From Desulfococcaceae bacterium HSG8 (GTDB lineage: Bacteria; Desulfobacterota; Desulfobacteria; Desulfobacterales; 4be13): 64,000 bases of DNA. Of this stretch, positions 14,779-61,209 are shown piece after piece. The translations under genes and the position numbers were made by a program. Positions within the stretch are counted from its first letter, which is position 1; the number at the start of each line of letters is the position of its first letter. Location of the stretch: the NCBI GenBank assembly GCA_030378015.1, contig JAUCGG010000004.1:1-64000 (forward strand). The letters run 5' to 3'. The notes beneath the pieces are model-generated. The model worked only from the letters and a program-made list of their open reading frames with translations, did no database searches and was not told the DNA's origin.

Positions 14779-15962
14779 TGAATGCAGCCCATGAAAATGC
14801 CATCACAATTCTGACCAACTATGTATTTCCCAATGATCTCCATGTTCACTGGAGCATGATGATCGCGTTATATCCTTATATTACCGGCATCGTGGCAGGT
14901 GCCTTTATCGTCTCTTCCCTTTACCATGTCTTCGGGGTGAAGTCCCTGAAACCCATTTCCCGGTTTTCCCTGCTGTTCGCGCTGGCTTTTCTCACCTGCG
15001 CCACCCTGCCGTTGCTGTTCCATCTCGGGCGGCCCGAAAGAAATTTCAACATCATGCTCACGCCGAATCCTTCTTCGGCAATGGCCGGATTCGGCTATAT
15101 TTATATGCTTTACGGGGTCGTTCTCCTGCTTGAGGTGCTGTTCATCTATCGTCCCACCCTGGTATATCTCAGGAAGAAATCCCAAGGGCTTATGGAAATG
15201 ATTTACAGGGCTTTGACGTTTGACAGCACAAACCTCTCTCCCGAATCCCTTGAACTGGATAGGAAGATCATCAGCTTTCTTGCCGCAATCGGTATTCCCA
15301 TGGCCTGTGTGCTTCACGGCTATGTCGGTTTCATCTTCGGGGGCATCAAAGCGAATCCGACGTGGGCCACGCCGCTTATGCCGGTTATTTTCCTGCTTTC
15401 CGCGTGTGTCTCCGGTGTCGCCGGCATCATCCTGGTGTATATTCTGATCAAGACGTTCACGAACAAACCGGCTGATACGGATTGTGTGCGGACCTGCACG
15501 AATTACCTCGCAGGGTTCTTTATCCTTGATTTTGTGTTTGAAATGCTGGAAGTATTATCCCATTCCTACCTGAGAACAGCGCATTACCACGCGGTGGATG
15601 AATTGCTGAACGGGCCGCTTTATAATTCCTTCTGGATAGGGCAGGTCGGCATACTCTCCGTGATCCCGCTGATTTTGCTGGGATGGCTGTGCCTGACCCG
15701 GGTAAATGACACGCTTTTCAAAATCGGCGCGTCGCTTGTCTCATTCATGCTTTTATTGCAGGTGGTATTCATGCGGTGGAATGTGGTTATCGGCGGTCAG
15801 CTAATATCCAAGAGTGCGAGAGGCTTCACTGTGTTTCATCCTGAATGGTTCGACAAGGAGGGCATTCTGACCGCCATTGTTCTGATGTGCGCTCCGCTGG
15901 TTGTCCTGTTTGTTATCAGCAGGATATTTCCATTCTGGATGGAAGAGATGGATGAAGGGTGA
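14778..15962 (+). CDS. NrfD/PsrC-type polytopic quinone-interacting membrane protein
   Basis: The 394-residue protein is strongly hydrophobic with about ten membrane segments, the layout of the NrfD/DsrP/HmcC-like group rather than the shorter eight-helix form. Recognisable pieces are FHLGRPER in the third segment region and the conserved NPSSAMAGFGY that follows. Family members exchange electrons with menaquinone in the inner membrane and may move protons. It is the last gene of the cytochrome-ferredoxin-NrfD operon, translated from a TGATG overlap with gtgatct just before. After the stop lies a simple gaagtttgaaggat repeat and then the 16008-16103 element. Confidence 0.92.
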   Translation: MNAAHENAITILTNYVFPNDLHVHWSMMIALYPYITGIVAGAFIVSSLYHVFGVKSLKPISRFSLLFALAFLTCATLPLLFHLGRPERNFNIMLTPNPSSAMAGFGYIYMLYGVVLLLEVLFIYRPTLVYLRKKSQGLMEMIYRALTFDSTNLSPESLELDRKIISFLAAIGIPMACVLHGYVGFIFGGIKANPTWATPLMPVIFLLSACVSGVAGIILVYILIKTFTNKPADTDCVRTCTNYLAGFFILDFVFEMLEVLSHSYLRTAHYHAVDELLNGPLYNSFWIGQVGILSVIPLILLGWLCLTRVNDTLFKIGASLVSFMLLLQVVFMRWNVVIGGQLISKSARGFTVFHPEWFDKEGILTAIVLMCAPLVVLFVISRIFPFWMEEMDEG

Positions 15963-16007
15963 AGTTTGAAGGATGAAGTTTGAAGTTTGAAGGCTTTTGC
16001 AAATATC

Positions 16008-16103
16008 GGCACCCTTCATTTGTCAGTTTACACTTTGCTGCAAAACAATTTTGTAAATTGTTTGGAACAATTTGCAAAATTGTTCTACTTTTATGAGAGA
16101 TGC
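16008..16103. mobile_element. GGCATC/GATGCC inverted-repeat element next to nucleotidyltransferase
   Basis: The left end ggcacccttcatttgtcagt and right end atgagagatgcc are inverted; the middle holds aacaattttgtaaattgttt and gaacaatttgcaaaattgttc. The same family occurs at 12770-13170, 32009-32052 (partial) and 44912-45010. Its right end provides an in-frame ATG (16093) in front of the next gene, which therefore looks longer than it is. Confidence 0.75.
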
Positions 16104-16122
16104 CCAAATACCTGATGAGAAA

Positions 16123-16470
16123 ATGGCTGCATACAAGGCAACGGCCCGCCGTTGTTCGGAGCTGGAAAAGCAGATGTTATTCCGCCGCTACCGACATGCA
16201 TGGGATCTGGCCAGGCAAATGGGTGATCTGCTTAAAGAACGCTTCGGCGCGTCCCGGGTGGTCGTGTTCGGATCATTGGTCAGCAAGGAACTTTTCCACC
16301 GCAGATCAGATGTTGACCTGGCTGTCTGGGATCTGGATGAGAGGATGTATTACCGGGCAGTAGGTCAGCTCTTGTATTTGGATAGTGAAATAAGCATGGA
16401 TCTGGTGAGGATAGAAGAAGCATCTGATTCTTTGCGGGCAAGAATTGAAAAGGAGGGAAAAGTTCTATGA
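16123..16470 (+). CDS. Minimal nucleotidyltransferase (MNT-type antitoxin domain)
   Basis: The 115-residue protein has the pol-beta nucleotidyltransferase signature: Gly50-Ser51 (VVVFGSLV) and Asp63-x-Asp65 (RSDVDLAV). An N-terminal helical stretch (KATARRCSELEKQML...RRYRHAWDLA) is typical of the subgroup paired with a HEPN-type ribonuclease. In HEPN/MNT toxin-antitoxin systems the MNT enzyme blocks the toxin by modifying it. Earlier in-frame ATGs at 16072 and 16093 lie within an inverted-repeat element, so 16123 is preferred. The stop codon overlaps the ATG of the following partner gene (ATGA), but that partner is cut off after six codons by an insertion. Confidence 0.75.
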   Translation: MAAYKATARRCSELEKQMLFRRYRHAWDLARQMGDLLKERFGASRVVVFGSLVSKELFHRRSDVDLAVWDLDERMYYRAVGQLLYLDSEISMDLVRIEEASDSLRARIEKEGKVL

Positions 16471-16487
16471 AAGCAGATTATATCTGA
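16467..16487 (+). pseudogene. Start of the nucleotidyltransferase partner gene, truncated by insertion
   Basis: An ATGA overlap with the nucleotidyltransferase gene and a good ribosome site (aggaggg) introduce a frame that reads MKADYI then stop. MK.DY is a usual opening for the HEPN-like partner of this nucleotidyltransferase subgroup. The frame is cut at 16484, where the 180-bp inverted-repeat element begins. No continuation of a HEPN gene is recognisable after the element, so the rest has been lost. Confidence 0.5.
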
Positions 16488-16663
16488 TTATAACGGATTT
16501 AGGGGAGCCTGAATCAGAAAGCATTCCCTTAAAAATCACAGAGGGCCGCAGAGAAACCACAGAGAATAACAATAAAGACTCTGCGGTTCTCCGTGCCGGC
16601 CCCTTGCCGAAGGTGGATTGTCAGGGCACATTCACCGGGATCCCCTAAATCCGTTATAATCAG
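16484..16663. mobile_element. 180-bp MITE-like element with perfect terminal inverted repeats
   Basis: The ends are perfect 23-base inverted repeats starting ctgattataacggattta. Both sides are flanked by TAT (16481-16483 and 16664-16666), consistent with a short target duplication. Inside is a hairpin with arms cacagagggccgcagag and ctctgcggttctccgtg (about 16541-16592). It encodes nothing. An element with related ends lies at 25976-26224. Confidence 0.85.
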
Positions 16664-16664
16664 T

Positions 16665-17225
16665 ATGATCCTGGTTGTAATAAACACGCGGAAATCCTCT
16701 GACGAATCTCCGAATCTGCAGGACATCACCTTTTTCGAGCTGCATTTTCATCCCCGGCATCAGAACTGGTGTGGATGGTATCCGGCAATTACGACAGAGC
16801 CGAAGCAATTGGAAGACTTTGATATGATACGTCTCTCAGAACAGGGCTTGGTTCCTGTCAGCCCCTCAATTGAAAACTACTGGCATCACAGACAAAAATG
16901 GCCGTCCTCACAAGCGGCCCGATGGCTTTTCAGCACGAAGGGAAGATATGAGCATCCGCGGAACAAGATGAATCCGGGATGGGCTGTCCGGCAAAAAGAC
17001 AATACCTGGCTGGTATCCGGCTGGGCATGGTTGCCACACCACAGAGACATTCTGTACCATTACGCCACGATCAGGAGTCAGATGCGGGAACTTCTCTCCG
17101 GCCGAACCCATTGGCTTGATGCGTTGAATCTGGAGGGGAATGTCAGAAATGTGCAAATCACAATCAGAAGCGGCCCGGATGCATGGAATCAGGCGGCCAA
17201 AACAGTTGGAGGTGCAAATGATTAA
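16665..17225 (+). CDS. Unknown protein, first gene of the ATPase/TOPRIM operon
   Basis: A 186-residue product, rich in Trp and His (HPRHQNWCGWYPAI, ENYWHHRQKW, WLVSGWAWLPHHRD), with no family I recognise and no membrane segment or signal peptide. Its ATG begins two bases after the end of the 180-bp element, so the promoter and ribosome site may have been altered by that insertion; part of the natural N-terminus could be missing. It overlaps the ATPase gene by eight bases, which ties it to the ATPase and TOPRIM genes as one unit. It could be a sensor, regulator or third subunit; this is inference from position only. Confidence 0.6.
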   Translation: MILVVINTRKSSDESPNLQDITFFELHFHPRHQNWCGWYPAITTEPKQLEDFDMIRLSEQGLVPVSPSIENYWHHRQKWPSSQAARWLFSTKGRYEHPRNKMNPGWAVRQKDNTWLVSGWAWLPHHRDILYHYATIRSQMRELLSGRTHWLDALNLEGNVRNVQITIRSGPDAWNQAAKTVGGAND

Positions 17226-52720: not shown

Positions 52721-52999
52721 ATGTACAAACTGAAAATAACGGTTGAAAGAATTGACGGATACTGCAATCTGCCCATGCTGGTGGGGGATTCCTTCGAGGT
52801 GGACGGCGGTAAAATACTTATTCCTGATGGAAAATATATCTGTATGTGGGCCTTGCAGAGCATGATGCCGATATTCCCTCTGCTTCAGCGGGCCAGACCT
52901 GAAAAAAACGACTGGACATCAAAGTCCGGTCAGGTGTTTGTCTGCCCTGATCCCAGGGGGCTGGTTCACTATAGGATTGAAAGGATTGAAGAATCATGA
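52721..52999 (+). CDS. TIGR04076-like small protein
   Basis: The 92-residue protein reads YKLKITVERIDGYC..PMLVGDSFEVDGG, then PDGKYICMWALQSMMPIFPLLQR, the pattern of TIGR04076 proteins. Their function is unknown; they occur in anaerobes near redox enzymes. It overlaps the following polyferredoxin gene by four bases (ATGA), so the two proteins probably act together. Confidence 0.72.
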   Translation: MYKLKITVERIDGYCNLPMLVGDSFEVDGGKILIPDGKYICMWALQSMMPIFPLLQRARPEKNDWTSKSGQVFVCPDPRGLVHYRIERIEES

Positions 53000-53517
53000 T
53001 TGAGATTGATCCGTCGGTGTGTTCAGGGTGTTCCCGGTGTGAAGTGAATTGCACGTTTTTCCACACCGGGAAAGTCGGGAGAAGCATGTCCCGTATCAAG
53101 GTGGTGAAGATAGAGGAAAAGGGGATTGACTTTCCCGTGGTATGCAGACAGTGCCGGGAACGGTATTGTACACGCTGCCCCTCTTCGGCCATAACCCTTG
53201 GAAAACTGGGGCAGGTGATTGTTTCCGCGACACTGTGCGACTCATGCGGAGTGTGTGAGTCCCTTTGCCCTGTGGGCGCCATCGAGCTTCATGAAGGCCT
53301 GCCCTATGTCTGTGATTTGTGCGGCGGCACGCCGAATTGTGTAAAGGAATGCAGCATGGGAGCCATCCGATTTGAAAAAGAGGTGTCTGATCATGTATCA
53401 CTCTCGGAATTCAAAAAAAAATCAGCGAAGTTGTCCCCGGAATCCAAGCGGTTTATTTACGTTGAAGAGACAACGCAGGCTCTGAGAAATGAATGGGCAT
53501 CACGAAACATGCCGTGA
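52996..53517 (+). CDS. Four-cluster polyferredoxin, probable electron partner of the aldehyde oxidoreductase
   Basis: The 173-residue protein has four cysteine groups: CSGCSRCEVNC, CRQCRERYCTRCP, CDSCGVCESLCP and CDLCGGTPNCVKEC, as in HycB/AorB-type ferredoxins. There is no signal peptide, so it is cytoplasmic. Proteins of this type commonly sit next to aldehyde:ferredoxin oxidoreductase genes, and one is present at 59389 on the same strand. Three unrelated ATPase-nuclease genes now lie between them. Start by ATGA overlap with the preceding gene. Confidence 0.88.
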   Translation: MIEIDPSVCSGCSRCEVNCTFFHTGKVGRSMSRIKVVKIEEKGIDFPVVCRQCRERYCTRCPSSAITLGKLGQVIVSATLCDSCGVCESLCPVGAIELHEGLPYVCDLCGGTPNCVKECSMGAIRFEKEVSDHVSLSEFKKKSAKLSPESKRFIYVEETTQALRNEWASRNMP

Positions 53518-53586
53518 TGTTTCGTAAAAAAGAGGTCAGGAAAAAAGCATGCAATTTTCGGGCGCATTGAGGAACAGGAGGGAAAA

Positions 53587-55380
53587 ATGAGTGACAGACA
53601 AAAGGCTGTGAAGAAAAAACTGCCCGTCGGCAGTTCCGATTTCAGGAAACTGCGTGAGGGCGGCTATCACTATGTTGACAAATCCCTGTTCATCCGTGAC
53701 ATTGCCGAGGCATCGGCCGAAGTGACCCTGCTTCCCCGGCCCAGGCGGTTCGGCAAGACCCTGAATCTGAGTATGCTGCGGTATTTCTTCGAGAAAAGCG
53801 ATGAGGACCGGAGCGGACTGTTCGGGAAACTGGCGATCCGGGATGATGAATGCTTCGAAGCCCATCAGGGAAAATACCCGGTGATCCGGATGACCTTCAA
53901 GGATATCAGGGAAGGAACCTGGGATGCCTGCTACAAGAAACTGACAGGCATAATACGCAATATATTCAGGCAGCACAGGGAGATGCTCCTCTCTTCGGAG
54001 ATATGCGACGAAACCGACAGAAAACTCATCCGGCACTTTCTGGAGAAGACAGCGAATTCCGAGGAATGCGAGGATTCACTGAGGTTCCTGAGCGAATGCC
54101 TGTTCAGCCATTATCAGAAAAAGGTCGTCATCCTCATTGACGAATATGACACCCCCCTTCATGCCGGGTATGCCGGCGGCTATTACAAGGATGCGATCAG
54201 CTTCATAAGGAATTTTCTGAGCGGCGGTCTCAAGGACAATGAGCATCTGTTCAGAGGGGTGCTGACCGGCATCCTCCGGGTGGCCAAGGAATCGGTCTTT
54301 TCAGGGCTTAACAATCCCGGGGTTTACACCGTACTGAGCCGCAAATTTTCGGACGCGTTCGGGTTCACAGTGCCGGAGGTGAGACAGTTCCTGGAGGAGC
54401 GGGGCATGGGGGACCGGTATGAGGATGTCTCGCACTGGTACAACGGCTATCTGTTCGGAGGAAGGGTGATCTTCAATCCCTGGTCAGTGATCAACTACGC
54501 GGACAACGAGGGGGAGGCGAAGCCGTACTGGATCAACACCGCGGACACCGGAATGATTGACAGGCTCGCGACCCGGGGCAGCAGGGAACTGCGGGAGGAA
54601 ATCGGGCAGTTGCTGGAAGGCCGGAAGCTCACAAAGCCGGTGTATGAGAGCATCGTGATGCGTGATCTGGAAAAACGTGATGACCTGCTGTGGAGCTTCC
54701 TGCTGTTCAGCGGGTATCTGAAGCTGTCCGGCCCGGCAATCCGGAGAAATTTCTATGAACTGGAAATACCCAACGAGGAGGTGCGTATTGTTTATGAGGA
54801 GATGGTCGGGCGATGGTTCGCGGAGAAGACCGAGTCAAATCAGCTTGAGGAGATGCTGAGGGCACTGGAGATCGGGGACGTGAAGCTCTTTGAAAAGATG
54901 CTGCGCCTGATCGTCATGCGGATCATGAGCTACCACGACCTGGCCGGTGAGCCTGAGAAGGTTTACCATGCGCTGGTACTCGGGATGCTCGTCTGGATGT
55001 CCGGGAAATACGAGATGCGCTCGAACCGGGAGTCAGGGTACGGTCGGTACGACCTGATGCTGAAGCCGGATGATCCGGAGGGACAGGGGATCATCATCGA
55101 ATTCAAGCGGCTGGACGAGGACGAAGAGCAGGATGCGGACGATGACGGAAAGAGGAAGAAAAGGAAGAAGAAAAAGACCCCGCAGGATGCCCTGGAAGAG
55201 GCTCTGAAACAGATTGAAGACCGGGGATATGCCGATGAACTGGAGGCAGCCGGGATACGGAAAATTCTGAAACTCGCGGTGGTGTTCAGCGGGAAGAAAC
55301 TATGGGTGAAACAGGGCGGACAGCGGCACCCGGCACAGTCATCGGATTCCGGGCCGTCGGGAATACCCCGGGAAAGGTGA
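53587..55380 (+). CDS. AAA-ATPase-like / PD-(D/E)XK nuclease protein, copy 1 of 3
   Basis: The 597-residue protein has an AAA_9-type ATPase domain (PF09820-like) with Walker A RRFGKT at 53-58 and Walker B LIDEYD at 183-188, a helical middle with HWYNGYLFG, and a DUF1703-like nuclease domain with Asp489 (GRYDLML), Glu505 and Lys507 (IIIEFK). The C-terminal tail is lysine-rich. The family has many members in large anaerobe genomes; function not established, defence or mobile-DNA related. Compared with copies 2 and 3, residues about 113-178 and 378-410 are divergent while the rest is almost identical. Shine-Dalgarno aggaggg in a conserved leader. Confidence 0.88.
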   Translation: MSDRQKAVKKKLPVGSSDFRKLREGGYHYVDKSLFIRDIAEASAEVTLLPRPRRFGKTLNLSMLRYFFEKSDEDRSGLFGKLAIRDDECFEAHQGKYPVIRMTFKDIREGTWDACYKKLTGIIRNIFRQHREMLLSSEICDETDRKLIRHFLEKTANSEECEDSLRFLSECLFSHYQKKVVILIDEYDTPLHAGYAGGYYKDAISFIRNFLSGGLKDNEHLFRGVLTGILRVAKESVFSGLNNPGVYTVLSRKFSDAFGFTVPEVRQFLEERGMGDRYEDVSHWYNGYLFGGRVIFNPWSVINYADNEGEAKPYWINTADTGMIDRLATRGSRELREEIGQLLEGRKLTKPVYESIVMRDLEKRDDLLWSFLLFSGYLKLSGPAIRRNFYELEIPNEEVRIVYEEMVGRWFAEKTESNQLEEMLRALEIGDVKLFEKMLRLIVMRIMSYHDLAGEPEKVYHALVLGMLVWMSGKYEMRSNRESGYGRYDLMLKPDDPEGQGIIIEFKRLDEDEEQDADDDGKRKKRKKKKTPQDALEEALKQIEDRGYADELEAAGIRKILKLAVVFSGKKLWVKQGGQRHPAQSSDSGPSGIPRER

Positions 55381-55449
55381 ACATCGCCAACTGCCCTGAC
55401 AGGCTCCGAAAACTGATTTCCGGGCGATTTGAGGAACAGGAGGAATAAA

Positions 55450-57186
55450 ATGAATGACAGGCAAAAAACTGTGAAGAAAAAACTGCCCGTCGGCAGTTCC
55501 GATTTCAGGAAACTGCGTGAGGGCGGCTATCACTATGTTGACAAATCCCTGTTCATCCGTGACATTGCCGAGGCATCGGCCGAGGTGATCCTGCTTCCCC
55601 GGCCCAGGCGGTTCGGCAAGACCCTGAATCTGAGTATGCTGCGGTATTTCTTCGAGAAAAGCGATGATGACCGGAGCGGACTGTTCGGGAAACTGGCGAT
55701 CCGGGATGACGAATGCTTCGAAGCCCATCAGGGAAAATACCCGGTGATCTGGATGACCTTTAAGGATCTGAAGGAACCTTCATGGGAATACATGTACCGG
55801 AGAATGACGAATCTCATACGGGATGAGTTTCTGCGGCATGATGCCCTGCTCGGATCCGCCCTGCTGCGCGGGTCCGAGAAACGCTATTTTGAATCGGTGC
55901 TGGAACAGAAAGCCGAACTTCCGGATTACGGAGATGCGCTCCGATATCTGAGCGATTATCTGAGGCGTTATCACGGCGAAAAGGTGATCATTCTGATTGA
56001 TGAATACGACACTCCCCTTCATGCGGGGTATGCCGGCGGATATTATGAGGATGTGATCAGCTTCATAAGGAATTTCCTGAGCGGCGGTCTCAAGGACAAT
56101 GAGCATCTGTTCAGAGGGGTGCTGACCGGCATTCTCCGGGTGGCCAAGGAATCGGTTTTTTCAGGACTTAACAATCCCGGGGTTTACACCGTACTGAGCC
56201 GCAAATTCTCGGACGCGTTCGGATTCACAGTGCCGGAGGTGAGACAGTTCCTGGAGGAGCGTGGCATGGGGGACAGGTATGAGGATGTCTCGCACTGGTA
56301 CAACGGCTATCTGTTCGGGGGAAGGGTGATCTTCAATCCCTGGTCAGTGATCAACTATGCGGACAACGAGGGGGAGGCGAAGCCGTACTGGATCAACACC
56401 GCGGACACCGGAATGATTGACAGGCTCGCTACCCGGGGCGGCAAAGAGCTGCGGGAGGAAATCGGGCAGTTGCTGGAAGGCCTGAAGCTCACAAAGCCGG
56501 TGTATGAGAGCATCGTGATGCGGGATATGGAAGCCCGTGATGATATCCTGTGGAGTTTCCTGCTGTTCAGCGGGTATCTGAAACCCGTGGAACAACTGGA
56601 TGATGAGAACTTTGCCCTGGAAATCCCGAACAACGAGGTGCGGATTATTTATCGGCAGATGATCCGGAACTGGTTCGCGGAGAAGACCGAGTCAAATCAG
56701 CTTGAGGAGATGCTGAGGGCACTGGAGACCGGAGACGTAAAGCTCTTTGAAAGGATGCTGCGCCTGATCGTCATGCGGATCATGAGCTACCACGACTTGG
56801 CCGGTGAGCCTGAGAAGGTTTACCATGCGCTGGTACTCGGGATGCTCGTCTGGATGTCCGGGAAATACGAGATGCGCTCGAACCGGGAGTCGGGGTACGG
56901 CCGGTACGACCTGATGCTGAAGCCGGATGATCCGGAGGGGCAGGGGATCATCATCGAGTTCAAGCGGCTGGACGAGGACGAAGAGCAGGATGCGGATGAG
57001 GACGGGAAGAGAAAGAAGAAGAAAAAGACCCCGCAGGATGCCCTGAAAGAGGCTCTGAAACAGATCGAAGACCGGGGATATGCCGCGGAACTGGAGGCGG
57101 CCGGGATACGGAAAATTCTGAAACTTGCGGTGGTGTTCAGCGGGAAGAAGCTCTGGGTGAAACAGGGCGGACAGCAACAGGCATAG
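55450..57186 (+). CDS. AAA-ATPase-like / PD-(D/E)XK nuclease protein, copy 2 of 3
   Basis: The 578-residue protein has the same domains as copy 1: Walker A RRFGKT, Walker B LIDEYD, HWYNGYLFG and the IIIEFK nuclease motif. Residues about 113-178 match copy 3, not copy 1; residues about 245-325 match copy 1, not copy 3; residues about 378-405 match copy 3. The start is taken at 55450 because the leader gaacaggaggaataaaatga is shared with the other copies; the 55429 start lies in the leader. It is a mosaic of its neighbours. Confidence 0.88.
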   Translation: MNDRQKTVKKKLPVGSSDFRKLREGGYHYVDKSLFIRDIAEASAEVILLPRPRRFGKTLNLSMLRYFFEKSDDDRSGLFGKLAIRDDECFEAHQGKYPVIWMTFKDLKEPSWEYMYRRMTNLIRDEFLRHDALLGSALLRGSEKRYFESVLEQKAELPDYGDALRYLSDYLRRYHGEKVIILIDEYDTPLHAGYAGGYYEDVISFIRNFLSGGLKDNEHLFRGVLTGILRVAKESVFSGLNNPGVYTVLSRKFSDAFGFTVPEVRQFLEERGMGDRYEDVSHWYNGYLFGGRVIFNPWSVINYADNEGEAKPYWINTADTGMIDRLATRGGKELREEIGQLLEGLKLTKPVYESIVMRDMEARDDILWSFLLFSGYLKPVEQLDDENFALEIPNNEVRIIYRQMIRNWFAEKTESNQLEEMLRALETGDVKLFERMLRLIVMRIMSYHDLAGEPEKVYHALVLGMLVWMSGKYEMRSNRESGYGRYDLMLKPDDPEGQGIIIEFKRLDEDEEQDADEDGKRKKKKKTPQDALKEALKQIEDRGYAAELEAAGIRKILKLAVVFSGKKLWVKQGGQQQA

Positions 57187-57255
57187 CAGGAAGTGTTCCG
57201 GAAAATATTTTAAGGCAGTAAACGAAATATCCGGCTGAGGAACAGGAGGAATAAA

Positions 57256-59004
57256 ATGAATGACAGACAAAAGACTGTGAAGAAAAAACTGCCCGTCGGC
57301 AGTTCCGATTTCAGGAAACTGCGTGAGGGCGGCTATCACTATGTTGACAAATCCCTGTTCATCCGTGACATTGCCGAGGCATCGGCCGAGGTGATCCTGC
57401 TTCCCAGGCCCCGGCGGTTCGGCAAGACCCTGAATCTGAGCATGCTGAGGTATTTCTTTGAAAAAAGCGATGAAGACCGGAGCGGACTGTTCGGGAATCT
57501 GGCGATCCGGGATGATGAATGCTTCGAAGTCCATCAGGGGAAATACCCGTTGGTCTGGATGACCTTCAAAGACCTGAAGGAACCTTCATGGGAATACATG
57601 TACCGGAGAATAACGAATCTCATACGGGATGAATTTCTTCGGCATGATGTCCTGCTCGGATCCGATCTGCTGCGCGGGTCAGAGAAACGCTATTTTGAAT
57701 CGGTGCTGGAACAGAAAGCCGAGCTTCCGGATTACGGAGATGCGCTCCGATATCTGAGCGATTATCTGAGGCGTTATCACGGCGAAAAGGTGATCATTCT
57801 GATTGATGAATACGACACTCCCCTTCATGCGGGGTATGCCGGCGGATATTATGAGGATGTGATCAGCTTCATAAGGAATTTCCTGAGCGGAGGTCTCAAG
57901 GACAATGAGAATCTGTTCAGAGGGGTGCTGACCGGCATCCTGCGGGTGGCCAAAGAGTCGGTTTTCTCAGGACTGAACAACCCGGGAGTCTATACGCTGT
58001 TAGATGAGGAGTTCGACACTTACTTCGGATTCACGGAGGATGAAGTGAGAACCCTGCTCTCAGACTGCGGAATCCCGGATCATTATGATGAGGTTTCGCA
58101 CTGGTACAACGGCTACCTGTTCGGAGGAAGGGTGATTTTCAATCCCTGGTCAGTGATCAACTACACGGCAAGCAAATCCCGGAAGGCACGTCCCTGGTGG
58201 GTGAATACAGCGGACATGGGACTCATAGACAAGCTCGCGACCCGGGGCGGCAAAGAGCTGCGGGAGGAAATCGGGCAGTTGCTGGAAGGCCGGAAGCTCA
58301 CAAAGCCGGTGTATGAGAGCATCGTGATGCGGGATATGGAAGCCCGTGATGATATCCTGTGGAGCTTCCTGCTGTTCAGCGGGTATCTGAAGCCCGTGGA
58401 ACAACTGGATGATGAGAACTTCGCCCTGGAAATCCCGAACAACGAGGTGCGGATCATTTATCGGCAGATGATCCGGAACTGGTTCGCGGAGAAAACTGAA
58501 TCAAATCAGCTTGAGGAGATGCTGATGGCGCTGGAGACCGGGGATGTGAAGCTCTTTGAAAGGATGCTGCGCCTGATCGTCATGCGGATCATGAGCTACC
58601 ACGACCTGGCCGGTGAGCCGGAGAAGGTTTACCATGCGCTGGTACTCGGGATGCTCGTCTGGATGTCCGGGAAATACGAGATGCGCTCAAACCGGGAGTC
58701 GGGGTACGGCCGGTACGACCTGATGCTGAAGCCGGATGATCCGGAGGGGCAGGGGATCATCATTGAGCTCAAGCGGCTGGACGAGGACGAAGAGCAGGAT
58801 GCGGATGAGGACGGGAAGAGAAAGAAGAAGAAAAAGACCCCGCAGGATGCCCTGGAAGAGGCTCTGAAACAGATCGAAGACCGGGGATATGCCGCGGAAC
58901 TGGAGGCGGCCGGGATACGGAAAATTCTGAAACTTGCGGTGGTGTTCAGCGGGAAGAAATTATGGGTGAAACAGGGCGGACAGCGGCAACCAGGGAAGGC
59001 ATAG
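57256..59004 (+). CDS. AAA-ATPase-like / PD-(D/E)XK nuclease protein, copy 3 of 3
   Basis: The 582-residue protein has the same backbone as the two upstream copies. Its region of about residues 245-325 (YTLLDEEFDTYFGFTEDEV, and SKSRKARPWWVNTADMG) is unique, while the flanks, including HWYNGYLFGGR in the middle of it, stay identical. The nuclease motif reads IIIELK in place of IIIEFK, keeping Glu and Lys. The gene has the same leader and Shine-Dalgarno. About 380 bases separate it from the aldehyde oxidoreductase gene. Confidence 0.88.
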   Translation: MNDRQKTVKKKLPVGSSDFRKLREGGYHYVDKSLFIRDIAEASAEVILLPRPRRFGKTLNLSMLRYFFEKSDEDRSGLFGNLAIRDDECFEVHQGKYPLVWMTFKDLKEPSWEYMYRRITNLIRDEFLRHDVLLGSDLLRGSEKRYFESVLEQKAELPDYGDALRYLSDYLRRYHGEKVIILIDEYDTPLHAGYAGGYYEDVISFIRNFLSGGLKDNENLFRGVLTGILRVAKESVFSGLNNPGVYTLLDEEFDTYFGFTEDEVRTLLSDCGIPDHYDEVSHWYNGYLFGGRVIFNPWSVINYTASKSRKARPWWVNTADMGLIDKLATRGGKELREEIGQLLEGRKLTKPVYESIVMRDMEARDDILWSFLLFSGYLKPVEQLDDENFALEIPNNEVRIIYRQMIRNWFAEKTESNQLEEMLMALETGDVKLFERMLRLIVMRIMSYHDLAGEPEKVYHALVLGMLVWMSGKYEMRSNRESGYGRYDLMLKPDDPEGQGIIIELKRLDEDEEQDADEDGKRKKKKKTPQDALEEALKQIEDRGYAAELEAAGIRKILKLAVVFSGKKLWVKQGGQRQPGKA

Positions 59005-59388
59005 CAAAAGCGTAATTCTTCTGACAAGACTATATATAAATGTGAACAAGTATTCATAAGTATCTGAGCATAAGTTTTTACGTACTCACCTTTGTGATAG
59101 ATATAAATTTTTGTTCGGATGCTTAATGTAACAGTTAAGGCGATTTCCAATAAAGAACATACCGTAAAACTGATTTTCAACCGCGAAAGACACGGAATTA
59201 TCGAAATCATATTCTTTTTCCGGCATCTTTCATATCGGCACAAAGGCACCTGACACTCCGGGTTCGCAGTTCCGCCTTCGGCTGAACGCGGAACCGCGAA
59301 CCGGAAAATGAAGGACGCTCTCTTTTTTTCGTGTATCCTGTGTGTTCCGTGGTATATTCTTTTCTGGAAGTCACCTAAGGAGTGCGAT
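59005..59388. other. Spacer before the aldehyde oxidoreductase gene
   Basis: No gene and no strong repeat. It includes gaacgcggaaccgcgaaccg-like short palindromic text (about 59265-59305) and a T-rich stretch just before the oxidoreductase start. A promoter for that gene is expected here, since its original operon has been separated. Confidence 0.45.
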
Positions 59389-61209
59389 ATGATGCCAAGA
59401 GGATATGGCGGAAAAATATTACGGGTGAATCTTTCAAATCGGGATATCAGGATTGAAAAAACAGATATCGGGTATATGCTGAAAACCATCGGCGGCAGGG
59501 GATGCAATTCCCAGAGGCTTTTTGATGAGCTTGATTTTGATGCGGATCCCCTGTCCCCGGAAAACATGCTTGTTTTCGGAATCGGTCCGCTGACAGGCAC
59601 GCTTTTAAGTGCGTCGGCCTTTACAACCATCTCTGCCAAGTCACCGCTGACGGGAATTCTCGGAGATTCGGCGGCAGGAGGTTTTTTCGGCCCTGAACTG
59701 AAGCAGGCAGGGTTTGACCAAGTGATTATCACAGGGAAAAGCGAGCATCCTTGCTACCTGTTTGTGACGGAGGAATATGCGGAGATCCGGGATGCCTCTC
59801 ATATATGGGGAAAAGATATCTGGCAGACCACATCCGTTATCCGGAAAGAACTGAATGACAATGCCGTCCAGGTGGCGGCCATCGGCCCGGCCGGGGAGAA
59901 CCTTGTCAGATTTGCCACGGTTGCCTGCAATAATTCCAGGATGTTCGGGCGAACGGGAATGGGCGCGGTCCTGGGATCAAAAAATCTGAAGGCACTGGTG
60001 GTCCGCGGTAAAAAAGGAGTCAGGCTTCATGATCCCCTGACCTTTTTAAAGCTCTGCAAGGAACTGGATGAAAAAATTATTTCGCACCCGGAATATGCCG
60101 ACAGGAGGAACCTGGGGTCAACCCTGCTTATGAAAGCCCTCAATAACCTCGGCATTCTTCCCACCAATCATTTCCAGGAGGGGCTTTGTGATTATGTGGA
60201 TGATGTGAGCGGGGAAAGCCTTGCCAGGAATTTCAAGACAAAAAACAAGTCCTGTTTCAACTGCAATATCCATTGTTCGCGGTATTACCTGACCCGTGAA
60301 ACAGAAGGCGAGGGACCGGAATATGAAACCCTCTGCAGTTATACGTCGCGTATCGGAGTTGACGACCTGAAGTTTGCTTTACGCATGACTTCTTTTTTAA
60401 ATAAAATGGGTGTGGATTCCCTGAGTTCCGGGGAGACCATCGGCTGGGCTATGGAATGTGTCCAGCGAGGACTGCTTGATAAGAATGATTTTGACGGGCT
60501 TGATTTTACCTGGGGAAACAAGGAAACCATTGAAAAACTGCTCCCCATGATTGTAAACAGGGAGGGAATCGGGGACCTTTTTGCCGAGGGTACCCGCGCG
60601 CTGTCCGAACATTTTCAAAAAGGAACCCGGGACTACGCGCTGCATGTGAAAGGGCTGGATATGATCTGCGGTGATCCCAGGGGTATCAAGGCATTCGGTC
60701 TGACATATGCCATTGCCTCCCGGGGCGGGGATCACCTGAGAGCGGAACCTTTTTTCGAACTTACCAACCGGTTTGAGGAGGCGGAAAAACGATTCGGGAC
60801 ACGGGACGCCGGGGATCGCCTGGCAGATAACGGTAAGGCGGACCTTGTCGTGTTTACCGAAAAGCAGGCACTTCTCACCGACTGCATGACCATGTGCAAG
60901 AATATCGGTCTGAGCATGGATATCATTGATTTCGATTTTGCATCAAGGTTGCTGACCTCTGCAACGGGTTTGAAATTTACGGAAGATCGGGTTGTCAGAT
61001 CTCTTGAAGGCATCATCGAAACGGACCGTCTGATGAATATTAAATTCGGAATTGATCCGAGTCAGGATACCCTTCCGAAACGATTTACGGAAGAACCGCT
61101 GGCACAGGGTCCGTCCAAAGGTCAGGTTGTCCCGGTAGAGAAGATGGTGAAAGAGTATTATCGTCTGAAAGGATGGGATAAAAACGGGGTCCCGGCAAGG
61201 AAGAAGTAG
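59389..61209 (+). CDS. aor: Aldehyde:ferredoxin oxidoreductase, tungsten/molybdenum type
   Basis: The 606-residue cytoplasmic enzyme oxidises aldehydes to acids using a tungstopterin (or molybdopterin) and passes electrons to ferredoxin. The N-terminal domain has GGRGCNSQRLFDEL and GPLTGT.LSAS; the [4Fe-4S] ligands are Cys289, Cys292, Cys296 (CFNCNIHC) and a late Cys at 499 or 503 (DCMTMC). GDPRGIKAFGLTYA matches the family near the active site. The start at 59389 (or 59392) has aaggag 6 bases upstream; a longer frame from 59308 adds a spurious hydrophobic leader. Its probable ferredoxin partner is at 52996. Confidence 0.93.
   Translation: MMPRGYGGKILRVNLSNRDIRIEKTDIGYMLKTIGGRGCNSQRLFDELDFDADPLSPENMLVFGIGPLTGTLLSASAFTTISAKSPLTGILGDSAAGGFFGPELKQAGFDQVIITGKSEHPCYLFVTEEYAEIRDASHIWGKDIWQTTSVIRKELNDNAVQVAAIGPAGENLVRFATVACNNSRMFGRTGMGAVLGSKNLKALVVRGKKGVRLHDPLTFLKLCKELDEKIISHPEYADRRNLGSTLLMKALNNLGILPTNHFQEGLCDYVDDVSGESLARNFKTKNKSCFNCNIHCSRYYLTRETEGEGPEYETLCSYTSRIGVDDLKFALRMTSFLNKMGVDSLSSGETIGWAMECVQRGLLDKNDFDGLDFTWGNKETIEKLLPMIVNREGIGDLFAEGTRALSEHFQKGTRDYALHVKGLDMICGDPRGIKAFGLTYAIASRGGDHLRAEPFFELTNRFEEAEKRFGTRDAGDRLADNGKADLVVFTEKQALLTDCMTMCKNIGLSMDIIDFDFASRLLTSATGLKFTEDRVVRSLEGIIETDRLMNIKFGIDPSQDTLPKRFTEEPLAQGPSKGQVVPVEKMVKEYYRLKGWDKNGVPARKK

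Follow-up and report, generated by a model that had tools for sequence, protein, structure and literature searches.

Why three neighbouring genes should be nearly identical over most of their length, yet barely alike in a few sharply delimited places, is the question raised by a tandem triplet of DUF1703 genes, here called W1, W2 and W3, in Desulfococcaceae bacterium HSG8. The genes lie in the window that we analysed, a stretch of 64,000 nucleotides (positions 1 to 64,000 of contig JAUCGG010000004.1, assembly GCA_030378015.1). Our comparisons show that these paralogs differ by ancient alternative alleles at fixed blocks inside a near-identical backbone. The best overall explanation, which we regard as probable from the sequences compared, is that old block alleles are reshuffled by recombination, that the blocks set specificity, and that the array constitutes a repertoire.

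Each of the three proteins contains both Pfam domains of DUF1703, PF09820 (AAA-ATPase_like, 149-157 bits) and PF08011 (PDDEXK_9, 70-72 bits), the curated cut-offs being 26.1 and 25.5 bits, respectively. All carry the non-canonical Walker A, RPRRFGK(S/T), and Walker B, DEYD, of the family in the forms RPRRFGKT and LIDEYD; RPRRFGK and DEYD were invariant in 62 proteins. The PD-(D/E)XK residues D489, E505-x-K507 and Q542 (W1 numbering) are conserved in W1, W2 and W3, and their W2 equivalents are almost invariant across 27 proteins. By motif, the C-terminal part is thus a PD-(D/E)XK nuclease, and ATP-driven cutting of DNA or RNA is the predicted activity of the protein. An initial annotation of the window had proposed that the triplet keeps its engine while varying specific surfaces, and the conservation of these motifs agrees with the first half of that proposal.

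When DNA identity was followed in 20-codon windows, W1-W3 proved 90-100% identical outside three sharply bounded blocks and about 40-65% identical inside them. The limits fall at residues ~107-178 (block 1), ~248-282 and ~305-325 (block 2), and ~380-410 (block 3). Comparisons of W1 with W2 and with W3 stay at 92-100% over most of the length, dropping to 40-65% at codons 101-180 and to 49-51% at codons 381-400. W3, in turn, departs from the matching W1 and W2 at codons 241-280 and 301-320, with 50-65% identity. The first and last blocks, where W2 equals W3 and W1 differs, were as initially described. A single block at residues 245-325 with a deviating third copy had also been claimed; W3 does deviate there, but in two parts around an invariant WYNGYLFGGRVIFNPWS stretch. 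Even spread of the differences, which the same annotation had named as the outcome that would count against it, is not what we found: along 331 informative sites the pattern switches only 67 times (minimum 148 and mean 178 in 2000 shuffles), and up to 50 W1-only and 46 W3-only sites crowd into 90 bases, against at most 26 and 19 after shuffling. Near-identity of leader, Walker motifs and nuclease ends holds for the repeated leader and the motifs. The gene ends are not free of recombination, as the synonymous sites of W2 alternate between W1-like and W3-like there also.

Between block types the proportion of synonymous differences (pS) is 0.62-0.92, near saturation, beside a backbone synonymous distance (dS) of 0.16-0.25, so that the blocks must be old and the backbone recent or homogenised. 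Within a block type, the ratio of nonsynonymous to synonymous change (dN/dS) lies mostly at 0.06-0.4, apart from a single 0.58 based on few changes, and in the backbone it is 0.07-0.22. Such purifying selection indicates that the alleles are functionally constrained and that the diversity consists of reshuffled old alleles rather than fast point mutation. Diversifying selection in the classical sense, which the initial annotation had invoked, is not supported by these within-type ratios, while between types the synonymous sites are near saturation. The main rival to our explanation is nevertheless a neutral one, in which old, diverged paralogs have been partly homogenised by gene conversion, conversion tracts end where the copies are too unlike to pair, and the blocks owe their persistence to being heterologous and tolerant of change rather than to any usefulness of their diversity. 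This would account for the sharp edges, for the low backbone dS next to saturated blocks and for tracts that cross block edges, and it predicts purifying selection within types equally well. We take it seriously but think it unlikely, for reasons that emerge from other genomes.

The alternatives seen in the triplet are shared between species. Desulfobacterales bacterium HSG2 (G003), a sister genome, has five close copies, H1-H5, and genome G001 has one, G1. Alignment of these with W1-W3 distinguishes three types of block 1 and two each of blocks 2 and 3, which occur, in the order of the blocks, as AAA in W1 and G1, BAB in W2, BBB in W3 and H3, BAA in H1, CAB in H2, ABA in H4 and CBA in H5; H4 and H5 have a more divergent version of the type-B block 2, 72% alike to that of W3. 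Blocks of the same type from different genomes are 63-96% alike, whereas different types within one genome are 18-64% alike. Alternative blocks elsewhere, which the initial annotation had suggested looking for, are thus present in other genomes; none was found in the 81.5%-complete genome of HSG8 itself, where W1-W3 are the only close copies and further PF09820 members are more distant. HSG2 shows some peculiarities besides: H1 (L060) is short of two residues (HW) in the otherwise conserved motif VSHWYNGY, and the H4/H5 pair has upstream of it a further ATPase gene (L063, 1591-3147), whose matches are AAA_35-like and, weakly, PDDEXK_9.

Trees of 25 proteins, built from the backbone and from each block separately, tell the same story. 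The backbone tree groups W1-W3 (support 96/91), a clade that is rejected by block 1 (approximately unbiased test, p-AU 1.5e-5), block 2 (3e-92) and block 3 (0.016). In the block-3 tree all 25 proteins fall into two deep types (98/99), both with members from the family of the window organism and from other families of the order; the inner detail of the block trees is weak because the blocks are short. These data show that the block alleles predate the split of the genera carrying them and that new combinations have arisen, some of them recently. Indeed, H4 and H5, a tandem pair that matches almost totally except in block 1, show no synonymous difference in either block 2 or block 3, against 0.79 in block 1, and a pair from another genome of the order (D1c and D1d of G198) shows none in block 3; some exchanges must therefore be recent. 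The retention of allelic types across genera and families argues against the neutral account.

The positions of the blocks recur at still greater distances. G198, complete in a single 6.908-Mb contig with 18 close paralogs and about 48 PF09820 matches, contains subfamilies F, I and J that are 19-28% identical to W1, and its subfamilies F, I, J and K vary at the same places, block 1 in all four and block 2 in F, I and J. In Bacteroidota, two genes on plasmid pPP8 of Persicobacter psychrovividus have 121 differences in about 240 bases of block 1 and almost none over most of their 1683 bases. Three Persicobacter copies each have a block 1 of a different type, although past it, towards the C terminus, they are ~100% identical; two of the three types recur in Persicobacter sp. 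JZB09. A pair from a Parabacteroides plasmid differs mainly in blocks 1 and 2, and two Fusobacterium copies differ mostly in block 1. Such recurrence in deeply diverged subfamilies and in another phylum again speaks against neutral homogenisation. Exchange of blocks, which the initial annotation had read as cassette exchange or gene conversion, is strongly supported by the trans-species types in new combinations, by the conflict between trees and by the near-identical flanks of the Persicobacter block-1 swap. On pPP8 the DUF1703 genes are interleaved with Rhs-associated core tips and with small genes that may confer immunity, in three successive repeats (L208, 5413-16995), and no covariation was seen between Persicobacter block 1 and the adjoining tip and immunity genes. 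On the Parabacteroides distasonis plasmid they alternate with repeated DUF4906 genes, themselves related repeats (L185, 3453-13659).

The same genomes bear on the suspicion that tandem repeats were fused into chimeras during metagenome assembly or binning, a suspicion invited by the 389 contigs and 81.5% completeness of the HSG8 genome. We consider this extremely improbable and have rejected it for the family: the pattern recurs in the one-contig 6.9-Mb genome and in complete plasmids, and the block types of the window recur independently in HSG2 and G001.

How far the alternatives are combined is best seen in G198. Its four-gene array D1 has all four combinations of two types of block 1 with two of block 3, and the four genes of array D4 (L152) have all four combinations of two types of block 1 with two of block 2. 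The nine genes of D2 and D3 combine three block-1 types with three C-half types in all nine ways, once each. Block 1 in this genome is 86-100% identical within types and 24-58% between them. Tandem sets with complete combinations speak against neutral persistence of the blocks, although the conditional tests of their non-redundancy, given below, are weak and to that extent favour it. One gene of D2 and D3, D3c (L150, about 15057-16738), is broken at its 5' end, with several stops, whereas its C-terminal part is intact; such a copy may serve as a reservoir or be in decay. D4a and D4b are separated by two kinds of gene, one for a KAP/ATPase_2-like and one for a TPR protein (L152, 4787-7794).

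To place the blocks on a fold we used AlphaFold2 models of W1 and W2 (predicted local distance difference test, pLDDT, 82.9 and 73.6). No convincing sequence relative was found in the PDB. In VIA-align searches with the W1 model, the ATPase part matched the archaeal ATPases 2qen (Z 17.3, root-mean-square deviation 4.0, 304 residues aligned) and 2fna (16.6, 4.1, 304), followed by nucleotide-binding leucine-rich-repeat (NLR)/CED-4 NB-ARC proteins (Z 14-15) and, more weakly, TnsC (Z 10); the C-terminal part matched the CidB nuclease (Z 11.5, 3.1, 149). The model has the arrangement of nucleotide-binding, helical and winged-helix domains typical of signal transduction ATPases with numerous domains (STAND), although sharing a fold shows no function. 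The W1 and W2 models agree on block 1, despite 28% identity, in giving it five helices that lie between strand 99-103 and the Walker B strand, and alternative block 1s keep their hydrophobic anchors. Block 2 corresponds to helices 262-285 and the loop past 306, and block 3 to a hairpin and helix of the winged-helix subdomain. On the basis of the structure alignments, the models show that every ATPase subdomain has a block of its own: the nucleotide-binding one holds block 1, the lid block 2 and the winged helix block 3. These models do no more than suggest that the blocks are surfaces. In initiator-type AAA+ proteins, regions past the second strand, and the wing, can contact DNA; by this analogy, DNA contact by the blocks is only a lead.

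The same placement would suit a role of the blocks in assembly of the paralogs, with matching blocks forming homo- or hetero-oligomers and mixed combinations separating or linking rings. NLR resistosomes and CED-4/Apaf-1, the nearest folds, oligomerise through their nucleotide-binding, lid and winged-helix subdomains, each of which holds one block here. However, the blocks assort freely, without the covariation expected of interface pairs, and we judge this possibility improbable.

The surroundings of W1-W3 offer another reading. The 4Fe-4S gene and the aldehyde ferredoxin oxidoreductase gene on either side are directly adjacent in two relatives (G010 and G022), and the triplet is thus an insertion. 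If the nuclease-ATPase were an enzyme of transposition or amplification that promotes recombination or insertion, mosaicism could be its by-product. The division of a gene pair that is intact in relatives would fit, as would the Persicobacter and Parabacteroides copies interspersed in repeat arrays with Rhs tips or DUF4906, the transposases adjoining some copies, and the presence of TnsC among the weaker fold matches. Yet the edges of the insertion showed none of the terminal repeats, target-site duplication and recombination sites of transposons or integron cassettes: no direct or inverted repeat of at least 12 bases was found within either edge region, and no 9-mer is common to both. No relatives of W1-W3 were found in viral contigs. 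A mobile or amplifying role, which would also leave the fixed block positions unexplained, therefore seems to us quite unlikely.

Returning to reshuffled ancient alleles as the preferred explanation, we envisage W1-W3 as STAND/NB-ARC-like ATPases (nucleotide-binding subdomain, helical lid and winged helix) with a C-terminal PD-(D/E)XK nuclease, whose blocks would be shuffled by ordinary homologous recombination, that is, by gene conversion and unequal crossing-over of tandem copies. Recombination would take place in the conserved stretches, because only those are alike enough for pairing. Unequal crossover of two copies would yield a hybrid middle gene directly; W2 would require at least one further exchange, because its W1-like block 2 sits between W3-like blocks 1 and 3. 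With less confidence, we suggest that the blocks set response or assembly, recognising a DNA or RNA site, a partner or a component of an invader. The array would then act as a combinatorial repertoire in which different specificities drive one nuclease, its probable role being genome defence or conflict between genetic elements. The stronger proposition that the alternatives of blocks 1-3 are selected to occur in every combination per genome, are long kept and shared between species, and each trigger the same nuclease against a different target is, in our estimate, rather unlikely.

Several results weigh against a repertoire of surface-borne specificities. Conditional on allele counts, the non-redundancy of combinations in G198 gives P 0.007 when arrays are taken separately and P 0.04-0.53 when subfamilies are pooled at varied identity thresholds; given this dependence on threshold and grouping, completeness is reported here as description only, its excess over chance being uncertain. 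Unconditionally, nine classes sampled nine times at random would each turn up once with a chance of 9!/9^9 = 0.0009, and four of four with a chance of 0.094, figures that ignore allele counts and come from a test chosen post hoc on data already seen. Hydropathy of block 1, a proxy for burial, is not significantly related to variability (rho -0.18, p 0.13). None of the three proteins matched PADLOC-DB 2.0.0 at E <= 0.1, and the genes around the arrays are of mixed kinds, coding for the most part for housekeeping or surface proteins, with no shared defence island found.

The coordinates of the triplet and its blocks are listed in the table. An in-frame TTG lies 21 bases upstream of the W2 ATG. 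The nuclease domain contains, past the ExK motif and before the helix that follows, a charged stretch of low complexity (DEDEEQDAD...KRKKKKK; about 55129-55179 in W1, with equivalents in W2 and W3). It has in-frame length differences, and its length differs among homologs as well.

Table. The DUF1703 triplet, its leaders and its variable blocks in the window.
Feature	Positions	Strand	Remarks
Insertion with triplet	53518-59307	+	5.8 kb, between 4Fe-4S gene (52996-53517) and aldehyde ferredoxin oxidoreductase gene (59308-61209)
Leader GAGGAACAGGAGG(A/G)A(A/T)AAA	53566-53586	+	before W1; with ribosome-binding site
W1, DUF1703	53587-55380	+	597 amino acids; PF09820 at residues 13-238, PF08011 at 456-576; block types A-A-A
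Block 1 of W1	53905-54120	+	type A; residues 107-178; predicted helices 112-176 between strand 99-103 and Walker B strand 180-185
Block 2 of W1, first part	54328-54429	+	type A; residues 248-281
Block 2 of W1, second part	54499-54561	+	type A; residues 305-325
Block 3 of W1	54724-54816	+	type A; residues 380-410; predicted wing hairpin and next helix, winged-helix subdomain
Leader GAGGAACAGGAGG..., repeated	about 55431-55449	+	before W2
W2, DUF1703	55450-57186	+	578 amino acids counted from ATG; block types B-A-B
Block 1 of W2	55768-55980	+	type B
Block 2 of W2, first part	56188-56289	+	type A
Block 2 of W2, second part	56359-56421	+	type A
Block 3 of W2	56584-56673	+	type B
Leader GAGGAACAGGAGG..., repeated	about 57237-57255	+	before W3
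W3, DUF1703	57256-59004	+	582 amino acids; block types B-B-B
Block 1 of W3	57574-57786	+	type B
Block 2 of W3, first part	57994-58095	+	type B
Block 2 of W3, second part	58165-58230	+	type B; longer by one residue
Block 3 of W3	58393-58482	+	type B

DUF1703 is widespread, and some genomes carry tens of copies of it. Its four-part architecture, with an AAA+ module, a helical region, a PD-(D/E)XK domain and the unusual Walker A RPRRFGK, was described by Knizewski et al. (2007, PMC1913061); it is the same as here, but that work gave a fold prediction only and did not deal with how copies vary. Siozios et al. (2019, PMC6387759) reported multi-copy DUF1703 paralogs of Cardinium cCpun and of a midge Rickettsia, with intragenic recombination detected by RDP4 and PHI and with function not known. 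Family, domain architecture, expansion and recombination are those of our genes, whereas the accessible part of that report presents reticulation without homogenisation and does not give fixed blocks, trans-species block alleles or combinatorial sets. Recombination in DUF1703 was thus already known. What appears to be new is that the blocks are fixed, that their alleles are trans-species and that the combinatorial sets are complete; none of these was found in a literature search whose scope left out most subscription journals. Fixed swappable blocks mark candidate specificity sites, and make function testable through block swaps between natural paralogs that otherwise match.

Shuffling of target-recognition domains in HsdS of type I restriction systems likewise relies on swappable specificity blocks, which are flanked by conserved stretches and which recombination among the copies brings into new arrangements. 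The likeness is in the way of working; neither a methylase nor inverted hsdS copies occur at the triplet. In Rhs and contact-dependent inhibition (CDI) polymorphic toxins, arrays of partial copies (displaced tips) are the source of exchange; there the toxin end is swapped, whereas in DUF1703 the nuclease is conserved and ATPase blocks are swapped. The predicted fold of residues ~10-415 is like that of STAND/NLR ATPases (2qen, 2fna, CED-4/Apaf-1, Avs3). Unlike these, W1-W3 have no LRR, TPR or WD sensor domain among their Pfam domains, the C-terminal part being PDDEXK_9; their effector thus sits at the C-terminal end, and it is within the ATPase that the copies vary. If the blocks do set targets, DUF1703 would represent a bacterial form of combinatorial recognition in which variation resides within an NLR-like ATPase rather than in an attached sensor domain.

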